Shown here: positions 12,581-63,376 of the stretch, one piece after another
Numbering within the stretch: the first letter of the stretch is position 1
How the letters are laid out: each line of letters starts with the position of its first letter
Source: Arthrospiribacter ruber
GTDB lineage: Bacteria; Bacteroidota; Bacteroidia; Cytophagales; Cyclobacteriaceae
Direction of reading: 5' to 3'
NCBI RefSeq assembly: GCF_019343195.1
Contig: NZ_RPHB01000001.1
Span: 124,001 to 188,000, forward strand
Length of the DNA stretch: 64,000 nucleotides
The notes under the pieces: generated by a model
What the model was told of the DNA's origin: nothing
What the model saw: the letters and a program-made list of their open reading frames with translations, nothing else
The model's database searches: none
Position numbers and translations under genes: made by a program

Positions 12581-14176
12581 TTATCTAAGCTCGATAGGTT
12601 CTACTATAAGGTGTAATCTACCTGTCGTCACTGTATAAGGTTCGTATGTAATTATTTGGGTATTTATTAATTCACATGGAGGACTATTACGTCCACCGCA
12701 TCCAATTGGCCAGTTTCCATTGCTGATCGTGTAGTTAAGAAAGATAGGGTCTTCAAAATGTAATCTTGCTTCACCTAATAAATCTGAAGATTGAGTCGTT
12801 TCTATTGCAAAAGATTCCGATTCAGTGATTTCCCCTGTTGCACCGAATTTAAACCCGACTTTTTCCCCGAATTCAAAATTAGTTCCAATTTTCGTTTGAT
12901 TGGTTGTCGTTATTGTAGTTTTTATATCAGGGTCTTTTTCAATTATAACAAACTTCCAAGTATTTCCATATCTTTCAAAATTCCAATCTTCTATAGGAAT
13001 ATTTAAAGATACAGTGGGAGCTTCTTCGCTTATACCTTCAAATATTCTAAATGTTCGACCTCTTCCACCATTTTCAATTCGGTATTTAATATTAAATAAT
13101 TCATATGGCTTTAAGGAAAAAGATCTAACATATTTTTCTTGACCTGTTGGGGTCGTAATTAAGACATTTATCTCAAAATCAAAATAGCCGTCAGTCCATT
13201 CTGGTAGTATATTTATCATTTGGTCATTTCCAGTTGGAGATGGGTCCTCTGGGCTATTGCTTATAAAATTAAAATCCGCAGGTGGAAAATTGAATCTCAT
13301 GCCTGTTATGACCTCCATGTATTTTCTATTCAAAGGGCCTCTTGTTATATTTTGGGAAGCGTCTAGGCCATAGTAAATATTGTCGCGTTGCCACTCTACT
13401 TCTGATTCAATTGCATTAATAATATGCGAATAATCAGAAAGTAAACCGACTCTAAAATAACTTGAATTTGTTTCTATTCTTGAAATGGCTTCATTTTCAT
13501 AGTTGTGATTAATATCTTTAGTTTTATAGTTATTGTCTGTTATGAAATAAGATTCACCATTTAAATTTAATACTAAATCACCTAGATTATTATAGTTTTT
13601 TATTTGAGTATCACTTGATGAGATAATTCTCTCATTGTTTTTGATTACTATGATTGGATATGCAGGTTGGTACCCTCTGGGTATTTCATACTTTTCTCCA
13701 TCGCTACTAATTGCAGTAATAGCTGTTTTTCTATCATTAACATCATCTATAGCTATGTCTACAAGTTCATTTTCTGAGTCCCAATCAAAAGCGGTAAAAT
13801 CTATTAAGTCAGGGACTAGAATTGTAAGTAAAGGAAGGTTTTGGATGGCTGAATTTGTTTTTTCTCTATTTTCAGAATAATCTAAAATTGTCTCATGCAC
13901 ACTTTTACCTGATTTCATTAAAGTTTCTTTGAAGGTATGATAAAGAATATCATAATCACCATTAAACATCTTTAATGCTTCCTCCTTTATGAGATTCCTT
14001 AACTCTGGTTCGTTGAAAATTGCATTTCTAAGTGCCAGTGCAAATGTTATTTTAGCTTCTTTTTCATTAATTTGAATTTCTTTTTTCTTAAACTCCGTGT
14101 TGTCTGAGTAATCTTGTTCGCATGAAAGCGTGAATAGTGCTACTGCAATTAGAATGATTTTAGATAATTTTTTCAT
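12581..14176 (-). CDS. Orphan lipoprotein of unknown function
   Basis: A 531-residue protein with a lipoprotein signal: positive N-terminus, hydrophobic core and lipobox LS-C19 followed by EQDYSDN. An Asp two residues after Cys is absent, so outer-membrane anchoring is plausible. I recognise no domain. The first 200 residues are mixed helix/strand; the rest is beta-rich, and the C-terminal part has three Cys near residues 493-502 (GCGGRNSPPCELI). Base composition is visibly AT-richer than the flanking aroK and proS regions, and the codon choice is A/T-ending, which hints at a later arrival. It is followed upstream by a 455-nt AT-rich gap and stands alone. Confidence 0.6.
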   Translation of the reverse strand: MKKLSKIILIAVALFTLSCEQDYSDNTEFKKKEIQINEKEAKITFALALRNAIFNEPELRNLIKEEALKMFNGDYDILYHTFKETLMKSGKSVHETILDYSENREKTNSAIQNLPLLTILVPDLIDFTAFDWDSENELVDIAIDDVNDRKTAITAISSDGEKYEIPRGYQPAYPIIVIKNNERIISSSDTQIKNYNNLGDLVLNLNGESYFITDNNYKTKDINHNYENEAISRIETNSSYFRVGLLSDYSHIINAIESEVEWQRDNIYYGLDASQNITRGPLNRKYMEVITGMRFNFPPADFNFISNSPEDPSPTGNDQMINILPEWTDGYFDFEINVLITTPTGQEKYVRSFSLKPYELFNIKYRIENGGRGRTFRIFEGISEEAPTVSLNIPIEDWNFERYGNTWKFVIIEKDPDIKTTITTTNQTKIGTNFEFGEKVGFKFGATGEITESESFAIETTQSSDLLGEARLHFEDPIFLNYTISNGNWPIGCGGRNSPPCELINTQIITYEPYTVTTGRLHLIVEPIELR

Positions 14177-14631
14177 AATAAATTAATGTTTTTAATAGCT
14201 GTAAAGTTAAAAAAACATATTAAATATAACTAAAGTAATTTTAAATAATAATAAAATTATAATTATTGATTTTTATTATGTTACACATAATGATTTTTTT
14301 ATTTCAAACTATAAAATATGTTGAAAATAATAATTAATTAAAAAGAATTAGCTTTTTGAAGCTGATTTATCGAAAAATGACAAGGGAATTATTTTTTTTA
14401 AATTTTTTCTGAAAAATGAAAAGCAAATTGTTGCATTTCAAATGATTTTTTTGATATAGAATAAATTAATTCAATTTCTTGATAGAGGAATATTCAATCT
14501 TGAAAAAATTGGATTTAAAAACTCTTTTAAGAATTGAATACGTTATGCAAGGTAATTTTGCAAAAAAAAAAAGCCTATTCATTAAATTCTCATAATGAAT
14601 AGACTTCTTAATATCTATTTATTTTGTTCAA
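14177..14631. other. AT-rich intergenic gap (455 nt)
   Basis: No credible gene on either strand. It is strongly AT-rich with long A and T runs. The side near 14560-14606 holds the terminator of the FadL-like gene. The side near 14177-14215 should carry the lipoprotein promoter: read on the minus strand it has a TAACTTTA sequence close to the Bacteroidota -7 consensus TAnnTTTG, though the last base differs. Confidence 0.5.
14562..14606 (-). terminator. Rho-independent terminator of the FadL-like gene
   Basis: On the minus strand, 26 nt after the stop codon, AAGTCTATTCATTA (14593-14606) pairs with its partner at 14571-14584 with one G-U pair, followed by an 11-base T run. One-sided: the plus strand lacks a matching T tract. 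Confidence 0.85.
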
Positions 14632-16122
14632 TTAGAAATTAAAACCAATAGTCAATAATCCTTGATTTACATTCCTTCTTATTGTACTTAAAGGTCCAAT
14701 ATTATTTCCCAAATTATTAAATAACGAATATGAAAAATATGGATTTTCAGAAGTCGAATTAATTAATGCGAAATCCACGTAAAACTTCTCTAATTTAACT
14801 CCTAAACCACCTGAGAATTGTATTAGGCTTCTATCAAAATTTTGGTCAATCGTAGGGTCTCCATAAAAAGCATAGCCCGCCCTTAGTCTCCAAAAATTTA
14901 ACCTATATTCACCTCCTATTCTGTAATTTATTGTTTGTCCGAGAGAATTTGAAATTTCAAAATTATCTATTGTAGGATCAAAATCTCTAGAATTAATTCG
15001 ATTTTGGCTATAATCAATATAATCTATATCAGCACTAATGAAGCCATTTTTACCAAAGAAATAAGTCGCCCCACCACTTACAAAAATTGGGGTTCTTAAA
15101 CTATTCGTACTCAATTCTATATTGCTAAACTCTCTTTCTGAAAATTCTAGTTGACCATTTAAATCATAAAATTCCCCAATAATATTAGCATCCACTTCTT
15201 TATTAAGTCTATGCCAGGTTGGACTTTTGAAATTCAATCCTAAATTAATAGTTTCAATTGGTTTGTAAATTAATCCCAAATTTATATTTGCTCCAAAGCC
15301 ATTAATTTGAGTGTTATCTTCAATGGAATAAATTAAGGATCGAATCCCATCAGAATCTCTAAATTCTTCACCAAAAATCCTATTTTGAAAAAAGTTGACT
15401 GATTGTAACCCTATACCTCCACCTATAAAAAGTTTGTTGTCAAAATTGGCTCCGTAAGATATTGATGTCTGCGAAATTCCACCTTCAGTAATTATTATTT
15501 CATCACTTAATGGCTGTCCTATTGCGTACAATGGATCTCTGAAAAAACCATCTGTTTCATTTCCTTGAACTAGTTCAATATCAAGGACTAATCCATCGGT
15601 AGCACCAAGAGGGGGTTCTCCAAATGCATTATATTGACTTATGTAAAAATCAAGCAGTGAGCTCTGATTGTTTTGAGTTGAGAAATGACCGAACTGATTA
15701 TTAAAATTAGCAATGCGATTAAAACTTATACCAAAGGTTCCACCTCGAAAAGATCCAGCTTCAAGTGGTCCTTTAGGACTACTCAAGGCTAAACTAAGAT
15801 TTGGTAATGAAAAATTTGGAGTTCTGTCGTTTTGCAGTTGTCCTAAAAAGGTTGTTTGAGATTGAGCAATGCTATAAGAAGGTGACAGGCTGAACTCTGA
15901 TTTCCGAAAAAATCCTAATCCGGCTGGATTGGAATGTATATTAGAAATATCCCCTCCGAGTGATATTTGTGTACCCCCTAATCCTAAAATTCTAGCAGAA
16001 CCTGTTGAATAATATTTACTAAATCTTAAAGCATCCTCGAAATAACTTGTCTGGGCCAAAGAAAAACCCGCAGACAATAGAAAAAAGGATGTAGCAAATA
16101 ATAGCTTTTTGGTTGATATCAT
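14632..16122 (-). CDS. OmpP1/FadL-family outer-membrane protein
   Basis: Outer-membrane beta-barrel of 496 residues. A signal peptide ends near residue 23 (FSLAQ). The N-terminal stretch ARILGLGGTQISLGGDISNIHSNPAGLGFF is of the FadL/TodX type, where the hatch region contacts an Asn-Pro-Ala motif; alternating hydrophobic strands run to a terminal Phe (TIGFNF). Members carry hydrophobic solutes across the outer membrane; the substrate here is unknown. It lacks the shorter length and motif set of the T9SS protein PorV, which I considered. It is AT-rich like the neighbouring lipoprotein, and is followed by its own terminator. Confidence 0.78.
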   Translation of the reverse strand: MISTKKLLFATSFFLLSAGFSLAQTSYFEDALRFSKYYSTGSARILGLGGTQISLGGDISNIHSNPAGLGFFRKSEFSLSPSYSIAQSQTTFLGQLQNDRTPNFSLPNLSLALSSPKGPLEAGSFRGGTFGISFNRIANFNNQFGHFSTQNNQSSLLDFYISQYNAFGEPPLGATDGLVLDIELVQGNETDGFFRDPLYAIGQPLSDEIIITEGGISQTSISYGANFDNKLFIGGGIGLQSVNFFQNRIFGEEFRDSDGIRSLIYSIEDNTQINGFGANINLGLIYKPIETINLGLNFKSPTWHRLNKEVDANIIGEFYDLNGQLEFSEREFSNIELSTNSLRTPIFVSGGATYFFGKNGFISADIDYIDYSQNRINSRDFDPTIDNFEISNSLGQTINYRIGGEYRLNFWRLRAGYAFYGDPTIDQNFDRSLIQFSGGLGVKLEKFYVDFALINSTSENPYFSYSLFNNLGNNIGPLSTIRRNVNQGLLTIGFNF

Positions 16123-53746: not shown

Positions 53747-56401
53747 GTGAAACAATTGAAAAAACCTATGCAAGGGTATTTCCCCGGAAAAGTATTTTTC
53801 CTAGTAATAGTATCTTTTCTTCTCTTGATCCAAATGGGCTACTCCCAGTCCATGAATGACATACAGAACCTGAAAGTAGATAACCTGTCCGATGCGCAGA
53901 TTGAGCAATTGATCAAAAGGGCAGAATCAGCAGGAATGAATGAAATGCAGCTGGAGTCTTATGCCCGCGAAAGAGGTATGCCTGCCAATGAGGTAGCGAA
54001 GTTAAGGGAGAGAATTCAGCAGCTCAGATCCGGTGGAAAGGCTTCACAGCAGCAATTGCGACAAGGTCAGCAACCAGGACAGACGAGGCAGATTGAAGGA
54101 TTTAATTTTGATCCTGCACTTTTCGATTCTATTAGGAGAGCGGATCCTTATTTTGATCTGACTCCGGAGCAAAAGAAAATTTTTGGCTATAAGCTATTTC
54201 ATAACCGAAACCTCACGTTCAATCCTAGTCTTAACATTCCGACTCCTGGAAGTTATGTGATTGGGTCGGGGGACCAGCTTATCATCGATGTTTATGGAGC
54301 CTCCCAACAATCTTATGAGTTGACAGTGACACCAGAGGGCAGGATAATGATTCCAAATTTGGGCCCTATTACTGTCGGAGGATCTACTATAGATGCTGCA
54401 AGGCCAAGGATAAGGCAGCAATTGGGTAGAATTTATTCCGGTTTACTGGGATCAAACCCTAATACTTTTTTAGAGATCAGATTAGGAAACATCAGGTCTA
54501 TTTCAGTTTCAATGGTAGGAGAGCTGATCAAGCCAGGTACCTATACTTTGCCCTCATTTGCATCTGTATTCAATGCGCTTTATGCTGCAGGTGGTCCTAA
54601 TGAAAACGGAACATTCAGAAATATCCAAGTATACAGAGACAGCAAACTTCTTACGGAAGTGGATATTTACGATTTTCTAACCAAAGGAGATCATGGAAGC
54701 AATGTTACCTTAAGGGACAATGATGTGGTCATCGTACAACCGTTCAAAAGCAGGGTGGAACTCAAAGGTCCAGTCCGTAGAGAAGGCTATTTTGAAATGA
54801 AACCTGAGGAAAGTGTTGCAGACTTGATCAATTTTGCCGGAGGGTTTTCTTCTTTAGCATATAGAGAAAGACTTACGATCAGGAGAGCTACAGGGGAGCA
54901 AATGAAAGTTCAGGATCTAAGTGCTGAGGAGTTTGCTGCTTTTGGACTTCAGGACGGAGATGAAATTACAGTTGGGGAAAGGTTGAACAGGTTCGAAAAC
55001 CGGGTACAGGTAGCAGGAGCAGTTTTTAGGCCAGGAGAATTCAGTATTCCCGATTCAGGCATGGGGGTAAGGGATCTGATAGCAAAAGCTGAAGGACTAA
55101 GGGGAGATGCTTTTACAGGTCGTGCTATCTTATACAGAACCAAAGAAGACTTGACATTGGAATCCATGTCAGTGGATATAAGGGGGATTTTGGACGGAAC
55201 AATTCCGGATATCGCCTTAAGAAGAGAAGATGTGCTCAGCATTCCAAGCAGATATGACCTTAAAGAGGAATACTACATTAGGATAACTGGAGAAGTTAAC
55301 ATTCCAGGAGCCTATGCCTATGCCGAAAACCTGACTGTAGCAGACTTGATTACCAAAGCAGGAGGATTCAAGGATGCAGCTTCCAATTCTTATATAGAAA
55401 TAGCCAGAAGAGTACGTGACGATATTTCCGGAAAAGTGGCTGAGATCATCAATCTAGATGTAGATAACCAACTCAATCTGAGACCTGAAGATTCTAAAGT
55501 CAAGCTTCAGCCCTTTGACCATATCTTTGTAAGAAGGAGTCCCGGCTTTCAGAGAGAGAGATTGGTGGAGGTTCAGGGGGAAGTTTTTTATCCCGGGGAG
55601 TTTGCCTTGAGCAATGCCAATGAAAGAATCTCCGACCTTATAAGCCGTGCCGGCGGGCTCAACCAGTTTGCTTATCCGAAGGGGGCTACACTGATTAGGA
55701 GGACGGAGTATTTTCAGCCTAAGACTGAAAGTGAAATAAAAGAAGAGAATCTTAGGTCAGTGGTAGCTAAACTACAACGTGAAGGCTTAAGCCTCAGTGA
55801 GGCAGAGGAAATAGCTTTGGAACGGATTGAAAAAAGACTTGCCGACAAAGAGGAAGCCAAAGTGAAAATGGAAGAAAAGGAAAAGCAAACGCTAGCTTCA
55901 AGGTTTAGGGCAGAACGACTTCAGGATGTTTCAGTTGGAGATACTTCCTTGGTTCAATATGAATTTAAAGAGCAGGAGCTTATAGGAATAAACTTAGAAG
56001 CTATCATGTCAAACCCTGGATCAGCACAAGATCTGATTTTGGAAGAGGGAGATATCATATCAATTCCAAAAGAATTGCAAACAGTTAGGATGAGAGGAGA
56101 GGTTTTATTTCCAACCACAGCGAGATTCCAGGAATTGAGAGGGTTTAGGTCGTATATTTCCAGAGCTGGAGGATTTACAGAAGATGCCAGAAGGGGTAAA
56201 TCCTATGTGGTATACGCAAATGGAGATGTTCAGCGTACTAGGAAGTTTTTATTTTTGAAGTTCTACCCCCATATAGAGCCTGGAGCGGAAATTATTGTTC
56301 CTCAGAAGCCTGAAAGACAGCCTATGACCGCACAGGCTTGGGTTGGATTGGCAACAAGTATGGCAACCTTGGCTTTGTTGATCAGTAATTTGACAAATTG
56401 A
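53747..56401 (+). CDS. Polysaccharide export protein with six SLBB repeats (Wza-type)
   Basis: An 884-residue exported protein. Start is GTG 53747 or ATG 53768; the latter still leaves a good signal peptide. After an N-terminal helical and Gln-rich stretch (about 35-120) comes the polysaccharide-export domain (GSYVIGSGDQLIIDVYG, about 165-180) and SLBB repeats near residues 254, 336, 419, 511, 605 and 781, each in the form VxGEV..PG. A coiled-coil insert lies at about 660-720, and one C-terminal helix at about 862-882. The form is longer than E. coli Wza but normal for Bacteroidota. It would build the outer-membrane channel of the locus. Confidence 0.85.
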   Translation: MKQLKKPMQGYFPGKVFFLVIVSFLLLIQMGYSQSMNDIQNLKVDNLSDAQIEQLIKRAESAGMNEMQLESYARERGMPANEVAKLRERIQQLRSGGKASQQQLRQGQQPGQTRQIEGFNFDPALFDSIRRADPYFDLTPEQKKIFGYKLFHNRNLTFNPSLNIPTPGSYVIGSGDQLIIDVYGASQQSYELTVTPEGRIMIPNLGPITVGGSTIDAARPRIRQQLGRIYSGLLGSNPNTFLEIRLGNIRSISVSMVGELIKPGTYTLPSFASVFNALYAAGGPNENGTFRNIQVYRDSKLLTEVDIYDFLTKGDHGSNVTLRDNDVVIVQPFKSRVELKGPVRREGYFEMKPEESVADLINFAGGFSSLAYRERLTIRRATGEQMKVQDLSAEEFAAFGLQDGDEITVGERLNRFENRVQVAGAVFRPGEFSIPDSGMGVRDLIAKAEGLRGDAFTGRAILYRTKEDLTLESMSVDIRGILDGTIPDIALRREDVLSIPSRYDLKEEYYIRITGEVNIPGAYAYAENLTVADLITKAGGFKDAASNSYIEIARRVRDDISGKVAEIINLDVDNQLNLRPEDSKVKLQPFDHIFVRRSPGFQRERLVEVQGEVFYPGEFALSNANERISDLISRAGGLNQFAYPKGATLIRRTEYFQPKTESEIKEENLRSVVAKLQREGLSLSEAEEIALERIEKRLADKEEAKVKMEEKEKQTLASRFRAERLQDVSVGDTSLVQYEFKEQELIGINLEAIMSNPGSAQDLILEEGDIISIPKELQTVRMRGEVLFPTTARFQELRGFRSYISRAGGFTEDARRGKSYVVYANGDVQRTRKFLFLKFYPHIEPGAEIIVPQKPERQPMTAQAWVGLATSMATLALLISNLTN

Positions 56402-56420: not shown

Positions 56421-58211
56421 ATGAAGAAAAGAGAATCAGGCAGGTTGGTTTACTTTAAATATTTTTACTCGAAACTCGGCTATAAAGTATTTATAGCTTT
56501 GTTTTTAAGTTTATGCGTAGGTCTGTTAGATGGATTTGGCCTAGCTATGTTTCTACCATTATTGCAAATGGTGGGAGATACTGATACAGTAAGTAGCGGT
56601 GAAGAACTGGGAGGCCTTCAATTTTTAATTTCAGGATTGGAAAGTTTGGGAGTTCAGTTGAACTTACAGACTGTACTTTTCGTAATCATGTTTTTTTTTA
56701 TATTCAAAGGAGTTACTAAATTTTGCCAAGGATATTACAATGTGCTCACCCAGCAATACTTTATTAGAAAGCTGAGACTCACCTACGCTAAAATGTTGGG
56801 TAATTATTCCTATAAGTCTTTCGTGAACGTGGATTCAGGAATGGTTCAAAACACCATGGGTGGAGAAATGGGGCGTGTTTCAACCGCATTTAAAAATTAT
56901 TTCAGCACCATTCAGTCAGGTGTTTTAGTGGCCGTGTATTTAGGATTAGCCATTGCGACCAATTTTCAATTTGCAATATTGGTGGCAATAGGAGGTACTT
57001 TATCAAACTTGGTATACAACAGGATTTACAAAAAAACGAAGCTCACTTCAAAAAAAATCACCAAGGGAGGACATATATATCAAGGACTTTTGATTCAAAA
57101 TGTAGCGTTTTATAAATATTTGAGAGCTACGGGCCTGATGTCTTTATTTTATGACAAAATGAAGGTTGCAATTGAATACATAGAGCGTAGCAATAAGAAA
57201 ATAGGTTTTTATAATTCTCTGGTTGTCGCAGCCAGAGAGCCTTTGGTGATCACGGTGGTAGTAATTGTGATTTTGATTCAGGTAAATCTATTTTCGGAAA
57301 ATATCAGTGCAATAGTACTTAGCTTATTATTCTTTTATAGATCTCTGAACTCTCTTGTGGAATTGCAAAATCACTGGAATAATTTTCTAAATGTGACTGG
57401 ATCTTTGGACAATGTAATTGAGTTTGGTCAGCAATTGGCCAAAGCCCAAGACAAAAAGGGAAATGAAGAGTTTTTAGGCTTGAATAATAGCATAAAACTT
57501 GAAGATGTCTCATTTGGTTATTTTGAAGATAAAGTTCTTCAGAAGATTAATCTTGATATTCAAGCCAAGAGTACAGTGGCATTTGTAGGTGAAAGTGGAA
57601 GTGGAAAAACAACTTTGGTCAATTTAATAGCAGGCTTATTTGATGCTGATACCGGGAAGATATTAATTGACGATAAAGATCTTTGCAAAATTGATAAGTT
57701 AAGTTTTCAGAAAAAAATAGGTTATATCACCCAGGAACCTGTAATTTTTTCAGACACAATTTTCAACAATATTACAGCTTGGTCTGAAAAGTCACCTGAG
57801 AACCAAGAGAAATTTTGGAAGGCTTTGAAAAAGGCCGCAATTGATGATTTTGTCAAAGAGTTGCCTGAAAGGGAAGATTCAAAATTGGGTAATAATGGCA
57901 TTCAAGTAAGTGGAGGCCAAAAGCAAAGGCTCGCTATAGCAAGAGAACTATATAAAGAAACAGAAATTTTGGTGATGGATGAGGCAACCTCGGCATTGGA
58001 TTCAGAGACAGAAAAAATCATTCAGAAAAATATTGATCAACTTAAAGGTCAACTAACAATTTTAATTATTGCACACCGTCTTTCTACAATAAGGACAGCA
58101 GACAAAATTATTTTACTCAAAAATGGTAATATTGAAGCTGTGGGCTCTTATTCAGAATTGATAGTCGAATCGGAGAAATTTAAAAAAATGGTGCAGCTGC
58201 AAGAAGTATGA
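56421..58211 (+). CDS. ABC exporter with fused permease and ATPase (flippase-like)
   Basis: A 596-residue half-transporter. Six membrane helices lie in about residues 20-330; the nucleotide-binding domain has Walker A GESGSGKTT, signature VSGGQKQRL and Walker B ILVMDEATSALD near residues 393-400, 498-506 and 515-527. The order matches MsbA/PglK-type flippases that move lipid-linked glycans. It follows the export gene by 19 nt and overlaps the sugar aminotransferase by 4 nt, which supports a glycan-flippase role. Confidence 0.87.
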   Translation: MKKRESGRLVYFKYFYSKLGYKVFIALFLSLCVGLLDGFGLAMFLPLLQMVGDTDTVSSGEELGGLQFLISGLESLGVQLNLQTVLFVIMFFFIFKGVTKFCQGYYNVLTQQYFIRKLRLTYAKMLGNYSYKSFVNVDSGMVQNTMGGEMGRVSTAFKNYFSTIQSGVLVAVYLGLAIATNFQFAILVAIGGTLSNLVYNRIYKKTKLTSKKITKGGHIYQGLLIQNVAFYKYLRATGLMSLFYDKMKVAIEYIERSNKKIGFYNSLVVAAREPLVITVVVIVILIQVNLFSENISAIVLSLLFFYRSLNSLVELQNHWNNFLNVTGSLDNVIEFGQQLAKAQDKKGNEEFLGLNNSIKLEDVSFGYFEDKVLQKINLDIQAKSTVAFVGESGSGKTTLVNLIAGLFDADTGKILIDDKDLCKIDKLSFQKKIGYITQEPVIFSDTIFNNITAWSEKSPENQEKFWKALKKAAIDDFVKELPEREDSKLGNNGIQVSGGQKQRLAIARELYKETEILVMDEATSALDSETEKIIQKNIDQLKGQLTILIIAHRLSTIRTADKIILLKNGNIEAVGSYSELIVESEKFKKMVQLQEV

Positions 58212-59302
58212 AAACAATCCCCGTAACAAAGCCTTTCTCTCCACCCATTGAAGAATACAAAAAGTATTTAGATGAAATTTGGGAACGTAATTGGTATACC
58301 AATAATGGCCCTTTGCTTATTCAGCTTCAAGAAAACCTCAGGGAATATTTGGGAGTACGGGAAGTAGCATGTGTTTCGAATGGAACTGTCGCTTTGCAGA
58401 TAGCATTAAAGGCTTTAGGGATCAAAGGTAAAGTCATCACAACGCCTTTTAGTTATGTGGCTACTACCAGTAGTATTTTTTGGGAGGGTTGTACGCCAGT
58501 TTTTGCTGATATTGATCCACATTCCCTAAATATTGACCCATTAAAGATCCTTGAGGTAATAGATAAGGATACTGAGGCAATATTGGCAACCCATTGTTTT
58601 GGTAACGCCTGCGAAATTGATTTCATAGAAAAAATAGCCTCTGAGCATGGTCTCAAAGTGATTTATGATGCTGCACATTGTTTTGGTACTAAATATAAGG
58701 GAGAATCAATTTTTAATTTTGGCGATATTAGTACTACAAGTTTTCATGCTACCAAACTTTTTCATTCTATAGAAGGCGGTGCAATATTCAGCCAAGACAA
58801 AAATTTAAGAAAAAGGATAAGTTTTTTGAGGAATTTCGGACATGATGGTCCTGAAAAATTTAGTGGAGTCGGGATAAATGGTAAGAATTCAGAGTTTCAT
58901 GCTGCGATGGGGTTATGTAATCTCAGGTATATAGATGAAATATTAGAGAGAAGAAAACATCAATCTGAACTTTATCTCAGCGGATTAAGCTTTGAGAAAT
59001 CAAGAACTGTTCAGATACAAAAGAATACAACTTTTAATTTTGCGTATTTCCCCCTGATTTTTGATAGTTTTGAATTGATGAATATTGTTAAAAGTGAACT
59101 TGAGAAAGATAGTATTTTTCCAAGAAGATATTTTTTCCCATCCTTGAGCTCTCTGGACTATTTAGAAATAAAGCAGCCTACGCCAATTAGTGATGAAATA
59201 GCATCAAAAGTTATATGTTTGCCGCTATATCATGATTTGTTAGATAGTGAAATTGAGAAAACAATTGAGATAATTAATCACACTGTTTTCAATTATGATT
59301 AA
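58208..59302 (+). CDS. DegT/DnrJ/EryC1/StrS sugar aminotransferase
   Basis: A 364-residue PLP enzyme of fold type I. The PLP lysine is K183 in FHATKLFHSIEGG, and D154 in VIYDAAHCFG contacts the cofactor. Members transfer an amino group to a keto-sugar nucleotide, producing amino sugars for surface glycans. It overlaps the ABC gene (4 nt) and the ATP-grasp gene (8 nt), in line with a joint pathway. Which sugar is made cannot be read from the sequence. Confidence 0.9.
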   Translation: MKTIPVTKPFSPPIEEYKKYLDEIWERNWYTNNGPLLIQLQENLREYLGVREVACVSNGTVALQIALKALGIKGKVITTPFSYVATTSSIFWEGCTPVFADIDPHSLNIDPLKILEVIDKDTEAILATHCFGNACEIDFIEKIASEHGLKVIYDAAHCFGTKYKGESIFNFGDISTTSFHATKLFHSIEGGAIFSQDKNLRKRISFLRNFGHDGPEKFSGVGINGKNSEFHAAMGLCNLRYIDEILERRKHQSELYLSGLSFEKSRTVQIQKNTTFNFAYFPLIFDSFELMNIVKSELEKDSIFPRRYFFPSLSSLDYLEIKQPTPISDEIASKVICLPLYHDLLDSEIEKTIEIINHTVFNYD

Positions 59303-60287
59303 GAAGATTTACAATAGCTTAAGATGGTTTATTTCAAGAGAAAAAAAACTCAGTGACCCTTCCATTCCATTCAGTCAAAAAATATGGTGTTGGAAGAATG
59401 GATTTTTCTCTTTGCATCCTGAATTGTATGGATTGAATAAGGGAAATAAAGATAATTTTCTTGATAATGTAACCTACAAAAGAAAGCATCCAATAAATGG
59501 GATTTATTCCAAACTAATTGATAATAAGGCGTTTTTGCACACAGTATTTCCTCACACGGCTGAAATTCAAGTAATCTTTCAGAAGGGAAAAGAAATATCC
59601 AGAGTTGGTTTGGACTTGGGGGATCTTTTTGAATCGTTAGAAAAATGGATTTTAAAAAACAACCAATCATTGATCATTAAGCCATTGCAAGGAAGTGGCG
59701 GTACTGGTGTAGAGGAGTTGAAATCTGATAACTATAAAGAACAAATTAAAGAAAGAATTATAAACCGAGACAGTTTTATCATAAATGAAAAGATAAGTCA
59801 ATTAAGGTATAGTAATGAGATCTTTCCAGATTCCCTGAATACAATCAGATTTGTATTCTTTAGGGATTTGGAAAGCCAGGAAATTCATATTGCAGGTTGT
59901 TCACATAGATTTGGAACGAGCTTTTCAGCCCCTGCCGATAATGCCAAAAGAGGAGGAATATTTACGGAAATCGATCATGAAACCGGGGTCTTAGGTAGGT
60001 CTTTTGTTTACTTACATAAAAAATATGGAGGGTGGCATGATATACATCCCGAAACAAAGGCTCCCATTAAAGGAGTTCAGATTCCAAATTGGTCTCAAGG
60101 GATTCAAAAGGTAATTGGGACTCTGAGCCATCTTACTTGGCTGAAATATGGTGGTTTAGATCTAGTTTTTACAGAAGGTGGATTTAAAGTGATTGAAATA
60201 AATTCACTTCCTGATTTGGAATTGGTTCAGATGAAGAATCCATTGTTTCAGAACCAGGATTTTAGTAATTTTTTTAAAAGTTTATAA
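59295..60287 (+). CDS. Sugar-transfer-associated ATP-grasp protein
   Basis: A 330-residue protein resembling the ATPgrasp_ST family: a nucleotide-binding LIIKPLQGSGGTGVEEL (about 123-139), LNTIRFVFFR, then the GGIFTEIDHETGVLGRSF region and a KYGGLDLVF with a metal-binding EINSLPDLE near residue 301. Such proteins form amide or ester bonds using ATP, and the family name reflects frequent company with glycosyltransferases. The acceptor is unknown. Abuts the next gene directly (TAA then ATG). Confidence 0.8.
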   Translation: MIKKIYNSLRWFISREKKLSDPSIPFSQKIWCWKNGFFSLHPELYGLNKGNKDNFLDNVTYKRKHPINGIYSKLIDNKAFLHTVFPHTAEIQVIFQKGKEISRVGLDLGDLFESLEKWILKNNQSLIIKPLQGSGGTGVEELKSDNYKEQIKERIINRDSFIINEKISQLRYSNEIFPDSLNTIRFVFFRDLESQEIHIAGCSHRFGTSFSAPADNAKRGGIFTEIDHETGVLGRSFVYLHKKYGGWHDIHPETKAPIKGVQIPNWSQGIQKVIGTLSHLTWLKYGGLDLVFTEGGFKVIEINSLPDLELVQMKNPLFQNQDFSNFFKSL

Positions 60288-61502
60288 ATGCCAATATCGA
60301 GAGTTAATCAAAAGAAAATTTTGTTTCTAGGTGCAGGACATGCTCAGGTTCCTGCCATTATTGAAGCAAAAAAAAGAGGTTTTTTTACTTTAGTAACGGA
60401 TTATTTGTCAGATAACCCAGGTCATCAACTATCAGATAAATCATTTACAGTAAGCACTACGGACCTGCCTGCTGTGATGGAATTGGCCAAAAATGAAAAT
60501 GTGAATTTTGTTCTTGCTTATGCATCTGATCCTGCAGCTATTATTGCTTCCCAAGTTTCTGAAAAATTGAATTTGCCTGGAAATTCTAAAGAAAGTGTTT
60601 TTCAACTTACTGATAAGGGAGCATTCAGAGACCTTTTGGAAAATTTGAACTTACCTGTTCCTAATAGAATCGTTCTTGATGAAAGGGAAGTTAAAGAACG
60701 GGAAAACTTTTCATTAAATTACCCATTGATCGTTAAGCCTATTGATTCTTCAGGCAGTAAAGGAGTATCCAAGATTACGGCATTTGATCAGTTTAATGAA
60801 GCTGTTCAAAATGCTCTTAAATTTTCACGAAGCAAAAAGGTAATTGTAGAAGAATACCTTGATAATACATATGGTGATGTTCACGGTGATGGATTTGTAG
60901 TTGACGGAAAATTGGTTTTTTGCCATCTTGGAGACCATATCTATGGAAGTAAATCAAATGAATTTAATCCTACTGGTACGATGTGGCCAGCTCAAGTTTC
61001 AAAAGAAACTATTGATAGTTTTACTGCTGATGTTCAGAAAGTAATTACAGCCTGTGGTTTTATAAATGGACCTATCAATATTGAAGCTCGAGTCAATCAT
61101 CTTGGGGAAAAATTCATTATGGAAATTGGACCTAGAAACGGAGGACATTTTGTACCTCAGGCTATTCAACATGCTACTGGCTTTGACATGGTTGGAGCAA
61201 TTTTTGACTTGATGGAAGGCAAAAAAGTCATAATTTCGGAAAAGAAAAATTTCCCTGTAGCCTATCATGCCATTCATTCCTCTGGTTGTGGGATTTTAGA
61301 CTCAATCACTATTGACGCTGAATTGAAAAGGAGGCTTGTTTTTCAAAAACTATATAAAAAAAAGGGGGATGAAATACTCCCTTTTACTGGTTCCAATGCA
61401 GCACTAGGGATCCTCCTGTTTAAATTTGAGTCAGTAGAAGAAATGGTTGATAAAATGTCCAAAATCCAGGAATTGGTAAAAATTATATTCTATCATGAGT
61501 AA
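60288..61502 (+). CDS. ATP-grasp ligase (carboxylase/CarB-like fold)
   Basis: A 404-residue enzyme. Residues about 8-100 are a Rossmann pre-ATP-grasp domain (KILFLGAGHAQVPAIIEAKKRG); the ATP-grasp domain follows (IVKPIDSSGSKGVSKI, about 147-162; VEEYL; NIEARVNHLGEKFIMEIGPRNGG with metal-binding acidic residues near 265-282). The plan is that of biotin-carboxylase- or PurK-like ligases used to attach carboxylates to amines. With the DegT aminotransferase upstream, an amide on an amino sugar is a reasonable idea. Overlaps the next gene by 8 nt. Confidence 0.85.
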   Translation: MPISRVNQKKILFLGAGHAQVPAIIEAKKRGFFTLVTDYLSDNPGHQLSDKSFTVSTTDLPAVMELAKNENVNFVLAYASDPAAIIASQVSEKLNLPGNSKESVFQLTDKGAFRDLLENLNLPVPNRIVLDEREVKERENFSLNYPLIVKPIDSSGSKGVSKITAFDQFNEAVQNALKFSRSKKVIVEEYLDNTYGDVHGDGFVVDGKLVFCHLGDHIYGSKSNEFNPTGTMWPAQVSKETIDSFTADVQKVITACGFINGPINIEARVNHLGEKFIMEIGPRNGGHFVPQAIQHATGFDMVGAIFDLMEGKKVIISEKKNFPVAYHAIHSSGCGILDSITIDAELKRRLVFQKLYKKKGDEILPFTGSNAALGILLFKFESVEEMVDKMSKIQELVKIIFYHE

Positions 61503-62487
61503 GATATTGATTTTTGGGATCACAGGATCTGTTGGTGCATACCTCTCCACAGATTTGGCTTCCAAGGGCCACCAAGTAGTCGGAGTAGGCTCTAGGGAAA
61601 GTGACAATGGTTTTTTTGCTGAAAAAGGAATTGAATACTTACAGCTAGATATCACTCAGCGGGATCAGTTTAATAGACTTGAGGGTCATGTTTTTGATGC
61701 TGTGGTGCATTTGGCAGGAGCTATGCCATCTAAAATGGAAGGATATAATCCACATAAATACATTGATACGATAATGACAGGGACTTTAAATGTACTTGAC
61801 TTTGTAAAAAATCAATCTATTCCAAAAATAATCTTTACCCAAACGAGAGCTGATTCCAATCATTTGATGGGTTCTGAAAGACCTGTTCCATCAGAGATAC
61901 AAAGGAGTTTCCCAATGACTGGAGATCACAGTATCTATACAATTTGCAAAAACGCTGCAGTGGATTTGGTTGAACACTATTACCAATCTTTTGGTATTGC
62001 CAGATTTATTTTAAGGTTACCAACCATTTATGCTTTTCATCCTGACAAATATTTTTATGTAAATGGAAAACGGAAAGTTAAAGCGTACAGATATTTAATG
62101 GATTTGGCTGCTAATAGCTCACCTATCGAAATATGGGGGAATCCGAGCCTGAAAAAGGAAATTACATATGTTAAAGATTTAGTTCAAATTATTGAAAAAG
62201 CCATTGATTCGCATTTAGACGGAGGCTTTTACAACGTAGGCTGTGGAGTAGGAGTAAGTTTAGATGAGCAAATAAAAGGGATAATTAAAGTCTTTTCTCC
62301 AAAAGATAATCCATCACCTATTATTTATAGGCCTGAAATGTCTGACTCCAGGCAGTTTGTTCATGATATTTCTAAAACAAAGAAAGAATTAAATTATATC
62401 CCAGCCTACAATTATTTAGATCTTTTAAAGGATTTTAAAGAGGAGATGGAAATAAATAGGTTTGCTAAACTTTGGGGTAATGCTTAA
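61495..62487 (+). CDS. NAD-dependent epimerase/dehydratase (extended SDR)
   Basis: A 330-residue extended short-chain dehydrogenase. The Rossmann motif is GITGSVG (8-14), the active-site pair is Y148 and K152, and VVHLAGA (70-76) follows the second half of the nucleotide site. Members remodel nucleotide sugars such as UDP- or dTDP-hexoses. It overlaps its neighbours by 8 nt on each side (ATGAGTAA, ATGCTTAA). The exact sugar is not determined. Confidence 0.88.
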   Translation: MSKILIFGITGSVGAYLSTDLASKGHQVVGVGSRESDNGFFAEKGIEYLQLDITQRDQFNRLEGHVFDAVVHLAGAMPSKMEGYNPHKYIDTIMTGTLNVLDFVKNQSIPKIIFTQTRADSNHLMGSERPVPSEIQRSFPMTGDHSIYTICKNAAVDLVEHYYQSFGIARFILRLPTIYAFHPDKYFYVNGKRKVKAYRYLMDLAANSSPIEIWGNPSLKKEITYVKDLVQIIEKAIDSHLDGGFYNVGCGVGVSLDEQIKGIIKVFSPKDNPSPIIYRPEMSDSRQFVHDISKTKKELNYIPAYNYLDLLKDFKEEMEINRFAKLWGNA

Positions 62488-63376
62488 AAATCAAGGACCA
62501 ATTGTAAGTATTTCTTGCATTACGTATAATCATGCATCTTTTATTCGTCAGACTCTTAATGGTTTTCTGATGCAAAAGACCAATTTTGATTTTGAAGTTT
62601 TGATCCATGATGATGCCTCTACTGATGGGACACAAGAAATAATCAAAGAGTATCAAGAAAAGTATCCCGAAATCATCAAACCAATCTTACAGAAAGAAAA
62701 TCAATATCAAAAAGGACTTAGAGGGATTTCCAGAAACTTTAATTATCCCCGCGCAAAAGGAAAATATATCGCGCTTTGTGAGGGAGATGATTATTGGACT
62801 GATGAAAGAAAATTGCAAACACAAGTTGACTTTTTAGATGAAAACCCATCCTTCGTTGTTTCTTATCATGATGCTCAAGTAATCAATGAGAAAGGAGAAA
62901 TAATTGAACAGTCCAAAATGGATGAAAGTAAAAAAAAGGATTATTCTGAGAAAGAACTCATAAGCGGAAGTACTTTTATACTGACTTTATCTATGATGTT
63001 CAGAAACCTTGACATACTTAGGGATTATCCCTATGAAGCTAATATGATAAAGAATGGGGATAACTTTTTGACAAGTCTTTTAGGAATGTATGGAAAAGGA
63101 AAATACCATCCTGATATCAAACCGGCCGTATATAGAAAGCACAATTCCGGAATCTGGACAAAAATGTCTGATGAACAAAAGTCGGCTTCGAAAATTCTTT
63201 CCTATTATTGGACTTTTATGTTTTTCAAAAGAGTAGATCATAGATATGGAGAAAAAGCATATCTCAACAAGATATCCCAAACCTTAAACAGGCAAAGTAA
63301 AAATGAGAATATGATAGTCATCAAAAAGGGGATTTTCTCCAAATTTGCTTCTTTTTTCGCAAAATTAGCAGGGTAG
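62480..63376 (+). CDS. Glycosyltransferase family 2
   Basis: A 298-residue GT-A enzyme. The frame is open from TTG 62462, but the ATG at 62480, preceded by GGGG and forming the common ATGCTTAA overlap, is preferred. Motifs: VSISCITYNHASFI at the start, VLIHDDASTDGT and ALCEGDDYW (metal-binding DDx). No transmembrane part. Closely resembles the glycosyltransferase at 31832-32677 in order of motifs and wording. Confidence 0.9.
   Translation: MLKNQGPIVSISCITYNHASFIRQTLNGFLMQKTNFDFEVLIHDDASTDGTQEIIKEYQEKYPEIIKPILQKENQYQKGLRGISRNFNYPRAKGKYIALCEGDDYWTDERKLQTQVDFLDENPSFVVSYHDAQVINEKGEIIEQSKMDESKKKDYSEKELISGSTFILTLSMMFRNLDILRDYPYEANMIKNGDNFLTSLLGMYGKGKYHPDIKPAVYRKHNSGIWTKMSDEQKSASKILSYYWTFMFFKRVDHRYGEKAYLNKISQTLNRQSKNENMIVIKKGIFSKFASFFAKLAG

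Follow-up and report, generated by a model that had tools for sequence, protein, structure and literature searches.

Within a 64-kb stretch of the Arthrospiribacter ruber genome (contig NZ_RPHB01000001.1, positions 124,001 to 188,000; hereafter the window), an exopolysaccharide cluster holds a compact module encoding a DegT/DnrJ/EryC1/StrS aminotransferase (DegT), two unlike ATP-grasp ligases (an ATPgrasp_ST protein, hereafter ST, and an ATP-grasp_4 protein, hereafter GRASP2), a short-chain dehydrogenase/reductase (SDR) and a GT2 glycosyltransferase. These genes are tightly linked, the set recurs in other genomes, and at one position behind the aminotransferase the ligases are exchanged with N-acyl- and N-formyltransferases. 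We propose, with a probability of about 0.5, that its product is a dTDP-4-amino-4,6-dideoxyhexose, N-acylated and destined for a surface polysaccharide, the ligases building a chain on the sugar. The substrate, the order of the ligases and the nature of the acid are predicted from sequence and gene neighbourhood.

In the proposed pathway, RmlA, encoded downstream in the cluster, and RmlB, encoded elsewhere in the genome, would supply dTDP-4-keto-6-deoxyglucose, which DegT would transaminate to dTDP-Qui4N (viosamine) or its C4 epimer dTDP-Fuc4N. GRASP2 would form the acyl phosphate of a carboxylic acid, most likely of an amino acid, and couple the acid to the 4-amine of the sugar, and ST would add a second residue onto the first to give a short amide-linked chain. 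The SDR would adjust the sugar or the side chain, and GT2 would transfer the finished unit to the polysaccharide. It appears probable that one ligase or both act on the DegT amine; that the two build one chain falls a little short of an even bet.

Organisation of the module

The module and its upstream flank are as follows (all coordinates refer to the window):

53747..56401, + strand: SLBB/Poly_export polysaccharide export protein, upstream flank (PF10531, PF02563)
56421..58211, + strand: ABC transporter, upstream flank (PF00005, 112.8 bits)
58208..59302, + strand: DegT/DnrJ/EryC1/StrS aminotransferase, predicted dTDP-4-keto-6-deoxyhexose 4-aminotransferase, VioA/DesI-like (PF01041)
59295..60287, + strand: ATPgrasp_ST ligase (ST), predicted RimK/ArgX-type carboxylate-amine ligase (PF14397)
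60288..61502, + strand: ATP-grasp_4 ligase (GRASP2), predicted L-amino-acid-ligase-like, primary acylating enzyme (PF13535)
61495..62487, + strand: extended SDR of predicted epimerase/reductase type (PF01370)
62480..63376, + strand: GT2 glycosyltransferase closing the module (PF00535, 77.7 bits)

Consecutive genes overlap or abut, with junctions of -4 nt between the ABC transporter and DegT, -8 between DegT and ST, 0 between ST and GRASP2, and -8 both between GRASP2 and the SDR and between the SDR and GT2. The last value was calculated from the ATG start of GT2 at 62480, the list of open reading frames (ORFs) starting this frame at a TTG at 62462. An earlier sequence-only reading of the window had placed DegT, ST, a second ATP-grasp and the SDR here, on this strand and with 8-nt overlaps or direct abutment, and all four were confirmed.

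The aminotransferase and its predicted sugar

DegT scored 284.2 bits against PF01041 (Pfam cut-off 19.8), and its top sequence match in the PDB was 2po3 (E 5e-56). Residue K183 in the motif SFHATK, which we take to be the lysine binding pyridoxal phosphate (PLP), was present and invariant in 10 aligned relatives.

Genes for the preceding steps were located in the same genome and beside DegT in others. The RmlA-like gene lying downstream in the A. ruber cluster shares 64-72% identity with RmlA proteins over the TIGR01207 cut-off, and an RmlB over its cut-off is encoded on contig C12, outside the window cluster (here and below, G denotes a genome, L a locus stretch, C a contig and f a family). 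Relatives have RmlA and RmlB next to DegT or within a few genes of it. In L199 both stand directly before DegT and exceed the equivalog cut-offs (RmlA 489.2 vs 360.65, RmlB 480.6 vs 365.1), the RmlA and RmlB of G802 pass, and the order in L195 is RmlB, RmlA, a flippase-like gene, DegT and GRASP2. Furthermore, all three of the formyltransferases found directly after DegT in the survey described below pass NF005755, the model of dTDP-4-amino-4,6-dideoxyglucose formyltransferase (298.8, 284.8 and 277.6 vs 238). Because these enzymes are exchangeable with the gene that follows DegT, DegT most likely makes a dTDP-4-amino-4,6-dideoxyhexose, which the ligases would N-acylate.

The position after the aminotransferase is exchangeable

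Within the window's family, 390 genomes were searched for DegT (E <= 1e-75), and at least 124 of them contain it. We compared 63 loci (60 together with G118, G031 and the window itself), mostly from the best-scoring of the 124 genomes rather than from a random draw; in 61 of the 63 the next gene lay on the same strand, encoded at least 100 aa and was classed by Pfam. Hexapeptide acyltransferases were the most frequent (29/61), followed by WbqC (9), ATP-grasp proteins (4) and N-formyltransferases (3). The rest comprised C-C bond lyases, sulfotransferases and Glyco_transf_56 proteins (3 each), methyltransferases (2) and five singles, namely a 2-hydroxyacid dehydrogenase, a GT2-like protein, a MaoC, an AAA protein and one without a match. 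Thus, 36 of the 61 next genes encode an acyltransferase, a formyltransferase or a ligase, or 45 if WbqC is counted. The four ATP-grasp proteins are ST of the window, ATP-grasp_3 proteins in L110 and L122 (the latter barely over the cut-off, 23.6 vs 23.2) and an ATPgrasp_Ter in L120.

Two of the hexapeptide proteins were tested against the NeuD/PglB/VioB sugar acetyltransferase cut-off of 160.8; one passed (177.1) and one failed (128.4). The three Glyco_transf_56 proteins resemble dTDP-N-acetylfucosamine transferases but fail the respective cut-offs. In many of the 63 loci a GT2 like that of the window follows. Of the 63 family loci, 8 have an ATP-grasp protein among the ten genes that follow DegT, or 11 of 66 with G445, G558 and G325 added, a count that covers only kinds in a reference set drawn partly from the same loci and may miss others. 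WbqC genes at the acyltransferase position are exemplified by L115, L118, L124, L138 and L149, and the position suggests an amide-forming or acyl-transfer role for this family.

Exchange between DegT and GT2 is directly visible in G118. Its locus matches that of the window upstream (SLBB protein 94.5% over 164 aa, ABC transporter 77%, DegT 64%) and, after an unrelated cassette, matches it again (GT2 50%, GT4 59% and 53%, Wzz 79%, GT4 63%, Wzy 84%). The cassette encodes a C-C bond lyase, MmgE/PrpD, a product that matches no Pfam family, Ldh_2, an ATP-grasp sharing only 27% identity with GRASP2, an LbH protein, an adenylosuccinate-lyase-like enzyme and a cyclase; it looks as if it may also make its own organic acid to feed its ligase. 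With small differences, this cassette type was also present in G031, G325, L108 and L109. Among the cassette stretches (L066:6860-15590, L067:7243-17868, L108, L109 and L057), Ldh_2 was seen in some and the cyclase in four. It should be added that G325 carries the alternative-cassette ligase together with two ST-like genes, and that G031 (L067:11669-15439) has, behind its DegT cassette, a row of three different ATP-grasp-type genes: one GRASP2-like, a RimK and a weak TupA-like one under the cut-off.

Since the ligases fill the position that N-acyl- and N-formyltransferases occupy in many relatives, they are predicted to N-acylate the DegT amine. Taken further, and only tentatively, the data suggest a ligase assembly line that would build a swappable amide chain residue by residue on dTDP-viosamine, GRASP2 first and ST or a ligase of the group termed G4 (see below) next. 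The position after DegT would then serve as an exchange site that diversifies surface-glycan end groups in Bacteroidota (acetyl, formyl, WbqC-dependent, dedicated-acid or ligase-built), with some of the variants carried on plasmids and phages.

GRASP2, the putative first ligase

GRASP2 scored 53.6 bits against PF13535 (Pfam cut-off 27). In a phmmer search of the PDB its best matches were 4dim (E 1.7e-26) and the L-amino-acid ligase BL00235 (3vot; E 4.5e-19), ranking ahead of carbamoyl-phosphate synthase and PurT. Residues K110, K150, E279 and R283, presumably of catalytic type, are present. The structural model reached a mean pLDDT of 76.7 (58.0 or less for the other four models); the best Foldseek matches were 4dim, two L-amino-acid ligases (3vot, 4wd3), PurK and PurT. 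Biotin carboxylases ranked lower, and YwfE/BacD and RizA were also near. The fold is consistent with a carboxylate-amine ligase, as is that of ST, and names the substrate of neither. The label "carboxylase-like", given to this protein by the sequence-only reading, was discarded, as matches of the L-amino-acid ligase/PurT type and to carbamoyl-phosphate synthase were mixed and no NCBIfam cut-off was passed; L-amino-acid-ligase/PurT-like is the better description given that 4dim and 3vot are the best PDB sequence matches.

Two further roles of GRASP2 were considered. It may be PurT-like, activating formate (or bicarbonate) to formylate or carbamylate the amine, in concordance with PurT and PurK being among its sequence and fold matches and with formyltransferases filling the same position in other loci. 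Against this, 4dim and BL00235 score better and L175 carries GRASP2 together with a separate gene of formyl-transferase fold, which leaves this role very improbable. Alternatively, the ligases may first make a free dipeptide or modified acid, with only one of them loading the sugar. The closeness of the GRASP2 fold to 3vot, 4wd3 and YwfE/BacD favours this, but LAL_C2 (PF18603), the C-terminal domain of L-amino-acid ligases, stayed at 20.7 bits under its Pfam cut-off of 29.4, and in G363 and G820 no ligase other than GRASP2 was identified beside DegT; we consider this reading improbable.

A maximum-likelihood tree was calculated for 27 ATP-grasp proteins picked from the loci already collected here. 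The window's GRASP2 groups with that of G445 (support 100/100) inside a set of 12 rows (97/96), and a DegT-type gene is next to or near nine of the 12, the exceptions being those of Brachyspira, G373 and G430. The G4 ATP-grasps form a group of their own (4 rows, 100/100), and so do the ligases of the alternative cassette (5 rows, 100/100). Modification of a nonulosonic acid was rejected as the principal explanation, the nonulosonic-acid ligases lying apart from the GRASP2 set in this tree.

GRASP2 was the only ligase identified beside DegT in G363, G820, G301 and the phage contig L175, and is therefore likely to be the first ligase. In other loci it is joined by a second, different ATP-grasp, which is ST in the window and G445 and a G4 protein in B. 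finegoldii (Bacteroides) and G802. In the simplest reading, GRASP2 would form the first amide and the variable partner, ST or G4, would add a further one.

Relatives of GRASP2 were also found on the viral contigs L174, L175 and L176 (33%, 31% and 25%), and three weak partial matches came from a phage collection. In L175, GRASP2, the gene of formyl-transferase fold and DegT lie slightly upstream of a terminase gene; in L174, a short DegT-like gene directly precedes GRASP2. On a Brachyspira hyodysenteriae plasmid (L177:1083-13745), the GRASP2 relative follows genes for an acetyltransferase, an SDR, a methyltransferase and a radical SAM protein and is itself followed by three ATP-grasp amidoligase genes (two were scanned, both TupA-like), among rhamnan genes.

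The ATPgrasp_ST ligase

ST scored 111.3 bits against PF14397 (Pfam cut-off 31.4), and K129, D289, E301 and N303, which we assume to have catalytic-type roles, are present. Its search against PDB sequences gave no credible match. The structural model, built from 12 sequences, was of good quality (mean pLDDT 86.8, pTM 0.84), with RimK 5zct as the top Foldseek match. In structural alignments by VIA-align, in which rows within 1 Z count as tied, ArgX 3vpb reached Z 14.1 (rmsd 3.3, 210 aligned), RimK 5zct Z 14.0 (3.4, 213) and TTLL6 6vzv Z 13.1 (3.7, 225), and D-alanine ligases and glutathione synthetase Z 12.3-12.6. The best fold matches are thus amino-acid ligases acting on peptides or proteins.

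PF14397 is widespread: of 14 control genomes, 7 gave a match, which exceeded the cut-off in 2 of them. For ST alone, a first scan of genome contigs returned no relative, and viral contigs gave none either. Among ten annotated genome-contig ST loci (L161-L170), a DegT-type gene was matched only in L162, 31% identical and some 3.6 kb away from ST. Outside these ten are L160, which corresponds to the stretch of G383, and L171-L173, which the annotation did not cover. The Firmicutes ST genes of L165 and L167-L169 adjoin a nucleotidyltransferase-like gene, and those of L167-L169 also adjoin ABC-exporter genes. In L167 a CDP-glycerol glycerophosphotransferase (PF04464) precedes ST, which suggests a link of this ST to a teichoic-acid-like polymer. 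A Balneolaceae contig (L053:3-4240 and L160) contains four tandem ATPgrasp_ST-like genes, the first cut by the contig end. In a second locus of G445 (L055:5171-9602), two FemAB-like genes are followed by ST and next by another ATP-grasp-type gene, an order that again points to amino-acid addition.

Equivalent gene sets in other genomes

The set is not a local accident, as the same gene types recur together elsewhere (identities to the window's proteins in brackets). Plasmid NZ_OY725904.1 of B. finegoldii has DegT (41%), GRASP2 (32%, with an 8-nt overlap), G4, SDR (52%) and GT2 (44%). In G445 (f53) the order is DegT, ST (32%), GRASP2 (50%), a GNAT protein and GT2 (39%), the DegT frame being interrupted in the assembly and recognised by homology only. 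Family f29 contributed G558, with DegT (44%), WbqC, G4, SDR (47%), ST (24%) and GT2 (46%); G802, with RmlA, RmlB, DegT, GRASP2, G4, SDR and GT2, the same set as in L199; and G820, with RmlA, DegT, GRASP2 and SDR. The DegT proteins of B. finegoldii and G558 are 75% identical, and the two sets may represent one family. DegT and GRASP2 also stand together in genomes of other families, as well as on a plasmid and a phage contig.

A draw of 395 genomes from the phylum, including A. ruber itself, was searched for GRASP2 (E <= 1e-50) and ST (E <= 1e-15); the search scores few candidates per genome, and the genome counts are therefore lower bounds. GRASP2 was present in at least 5 other genomes, with DegT next to or near it in G301 (about 3 kb), G363 and G445. 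For ST the figure was at least 6 others, with DegT in the same stretch in G445, G558 and G325. The SDR (E <= 1e-70) occurred in at least 9 of 201 genomes of f29, DegT standing beside it in G558, G802 and G820.

The dehydrogenase/reductase and the glycosyltransferase

The SDR matches PF01370 (Epimerase) with 106.4 bits (cut-off 20.9), and both residues of its Y148-x3-K152 motif are conserved at 90% or more across an alignment of 10 rows. Its scores against 4,6-dehydratase models stayed well under the cut-offs (LegB TIGR04180 67.4 vs 475, RmlB TIGR01181 41 vs 365.1 bits), and it was rejected as the missing 4,6-dehydratase. Because Y148 and K152 are kept and both dehydratase cut-offs are far off, the protein is likeliest an epimerase or reductase. 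The same SDR (about 48%) recurs in L200-L203, where it adjoins a WcaJ-like sugar transferase and has another ATP-grasp in the vicinity, and none of these loci has this DegT. The ATP-grasp of L200 and L203 is PylC-like (PF21360 with PF02655), a gene for a PLP decarboxylase is additionally present in L202, and ST-like genes are found in L200-L202.

The GT2 of the window shares 39-46% identity with its counterparts at the end of the gene sets in G445, G558 and B. finegoldii.

Genomic setting

A glycosyltransferase-like gene (GT4) follows GT2 on the same strand after a gap of +4 nt, and GC content is even, 0.333-0.355, from the ABC transporter gene through GT4. The window ends inside the exopolysaccharide cluster, which continues with Wzz-, Wzy-, Ugd-, RmlA-, Wzc-, NeuB/NeuC/NeuA- and AsnB-like genes (named from their translations), the NeuB-like one about 24 kb past the SDR. 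Pfam scans of nine window ORFs found neither a NeuB-type synthase nor FemAB among them; the remaining cluster was not scanned for FemAB. Elsewhere in the window, GC content dips at 14001-16000 (0.291, vs 0.347 and 0.444 in the adjoining 2-kb steps).

One chain or two decorations

The reading of a sugar aminotransferase followed by amide-forming ATP-grasp ligases, first made from the sequence alone, is still the best available, given the exchange with acyl- and formyltransferases and the recurrence of DegT with GRASP2. The comparison of gene order in relatives was divided: the set recurs, but its parts are split in some genomes. ST stands without this DegT in G151, G383 and G579 (3 of 6 phylum-draw genomes); GRASP2 does so in G373 and G430, of the same genus (2 of 5), and in Brachyspira; and in 6 of the 9 f29 loci found the SDR has no such DegT beside it.

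These splits weigh against the module as proposed, and a number of further points do the same. G558 lacks GRASP2 and has WbqC in its place. The occurrence of ST without this DegT, in G151, G383 and G579 and in Firmicutes loci, indicates that its acceptor need not be a DegT product. DegT, whose best of 7 NCBIfam models is TIGR04427 DesI, reaches 246.1 bits there and remains under the equivalog cut-off of 650, and RmlB is absent from the window cluster. The GRASP2 model was built from 4 sequences; relatives of GRASP2 are also found in nonulosonic-acid clusters; and PurT, one of its matches, uses formate. At the exchange position, 16 of the 61 next genes are neither acyltransferase, formyltransferase, ATP-grasp nor WbqC, and no assigned function was seen for WbqC (PF08889), though it was counted there.

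The splitting of ST from DegT in G151, G383 and G579 also favours two separate decorations, in which GRASP2 acylates the DegT amine and ST uses another acceptor of the same polysaccharide, possibly another amino sugar, a uronic-acid carboxyl or a lipid-linked intermediate. Firmicutes loci moreover hold the ST domain in long proteins (L165-L168, PF14397 being shown for L166 and L167), ST loci of f29 lie beside a WcaJ-like sugar transferase and the SDR, and the A. ruber cluster itself has other sugar genes downstream (Ugd-, NeuB-, NeuC- and NeuA-like, named by reading). Gene order speaks against it: ST comes straight after DegT, overlapping it by 8 nt, and G445 likewise has ST between DegT and GRASP2. 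A further counter-argument is that sets equivalent in other respects have the unrelated G4 group as second ligase instead. We regard two separate decorations as unlikely, and retain the chain built by both ligases as the preferred reading.

Significance and comparison with known systems

N-acyl groups on bacterial amino sugars are usually credited to CoA- or folate-dependent transferases. ATP-grasp ligases in the transferase position would explain how sugars bearing amino acids are made, and would provide a predictive rule by which the gene after a DegT aminotransferase indicates the end group of the sugar. ATPgrasp_ST and, by position, WbqC, both poorly assigned Pfam families, become testable with dTDP-Qui4N as the acceptor. 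An exchangeable decoration site would also be of ecological interest, as phages and immune systems can see surface-glycan end groups.

The L-amino-acid ligases BL00235, RizA and BacD/YwfE are among the nearest folds of GRASP2, and RimK and ArgX among those of ST. These enzymes act on free amino acids or proteins and, in the chains listed, share about 9-22% sequence identity with the window ligases. The VioA/VioB viosamine pathway and the dTDP-4-amino-4,6-dideoxyglucose N-formyltransferases (NF005755, TIGR03570) have the same predicted sugar and the same gene position, but rely on acetyl or formyl transfer, whereas the window has ATP-dependent ligases. Iyer et al. 2009 reportedly predict that ATP-grasp ligases attach amino acids to surface polymers and peptides.

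Individual ATP-grasp proteins of glycan loci have been described before. In Shewanella oneidensis, deletion of sfmE (SO_3265), an ATP-grasp_4 gene of a glycan-modification operon, shifts the flagellin mass; as described there, the operon consists of five flagellin-related genes, including one with a NeuB domain, and has one ligase and no DegT (PMC3765264). A sugar operon of clostridia contains CA_C2189, termed an "ATP-grasp amino acyl ligase" (PMC4000134), and an ATP-grasp protein is also described from a Bacteroides capsule locus (PMC12118408). Linked peptide ligases are said to run successive ligations, with O-antigen among the examples (PMC4431377).

The nearest precedent is the type B flagellin locus of Clostridioides difficile (CDR20291_0244-0247). 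It encodes an FdtB-like aminotransferase of the DegT type beside a PF13535 ATP-grasp, with two further partners, one of them FemAB-like and the other a putative ornithine cyclodeaminase (PMC5207246), and its glycan ends in the amino sugar Fuc3N carrying taurinyl-Ala-Gly via its amine (PMC5207245). That locus, as far as described, has one ATP-grasp, a 3-amino sugar and flagellin as its target; the window has two ATP-grasps, an SDR, a predicted 4-amino sugar and an exopolysaccharide setting. The sequence-only reading, which did not recognise the set as a described pathway, therefore has to admit this partial precedent, though our literature searches returned no paper describing the exact gene set. 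In view of these systems, amino-acid side chains on amino sugars are of a known kind, and the gene set and its exchange position appear to be new.

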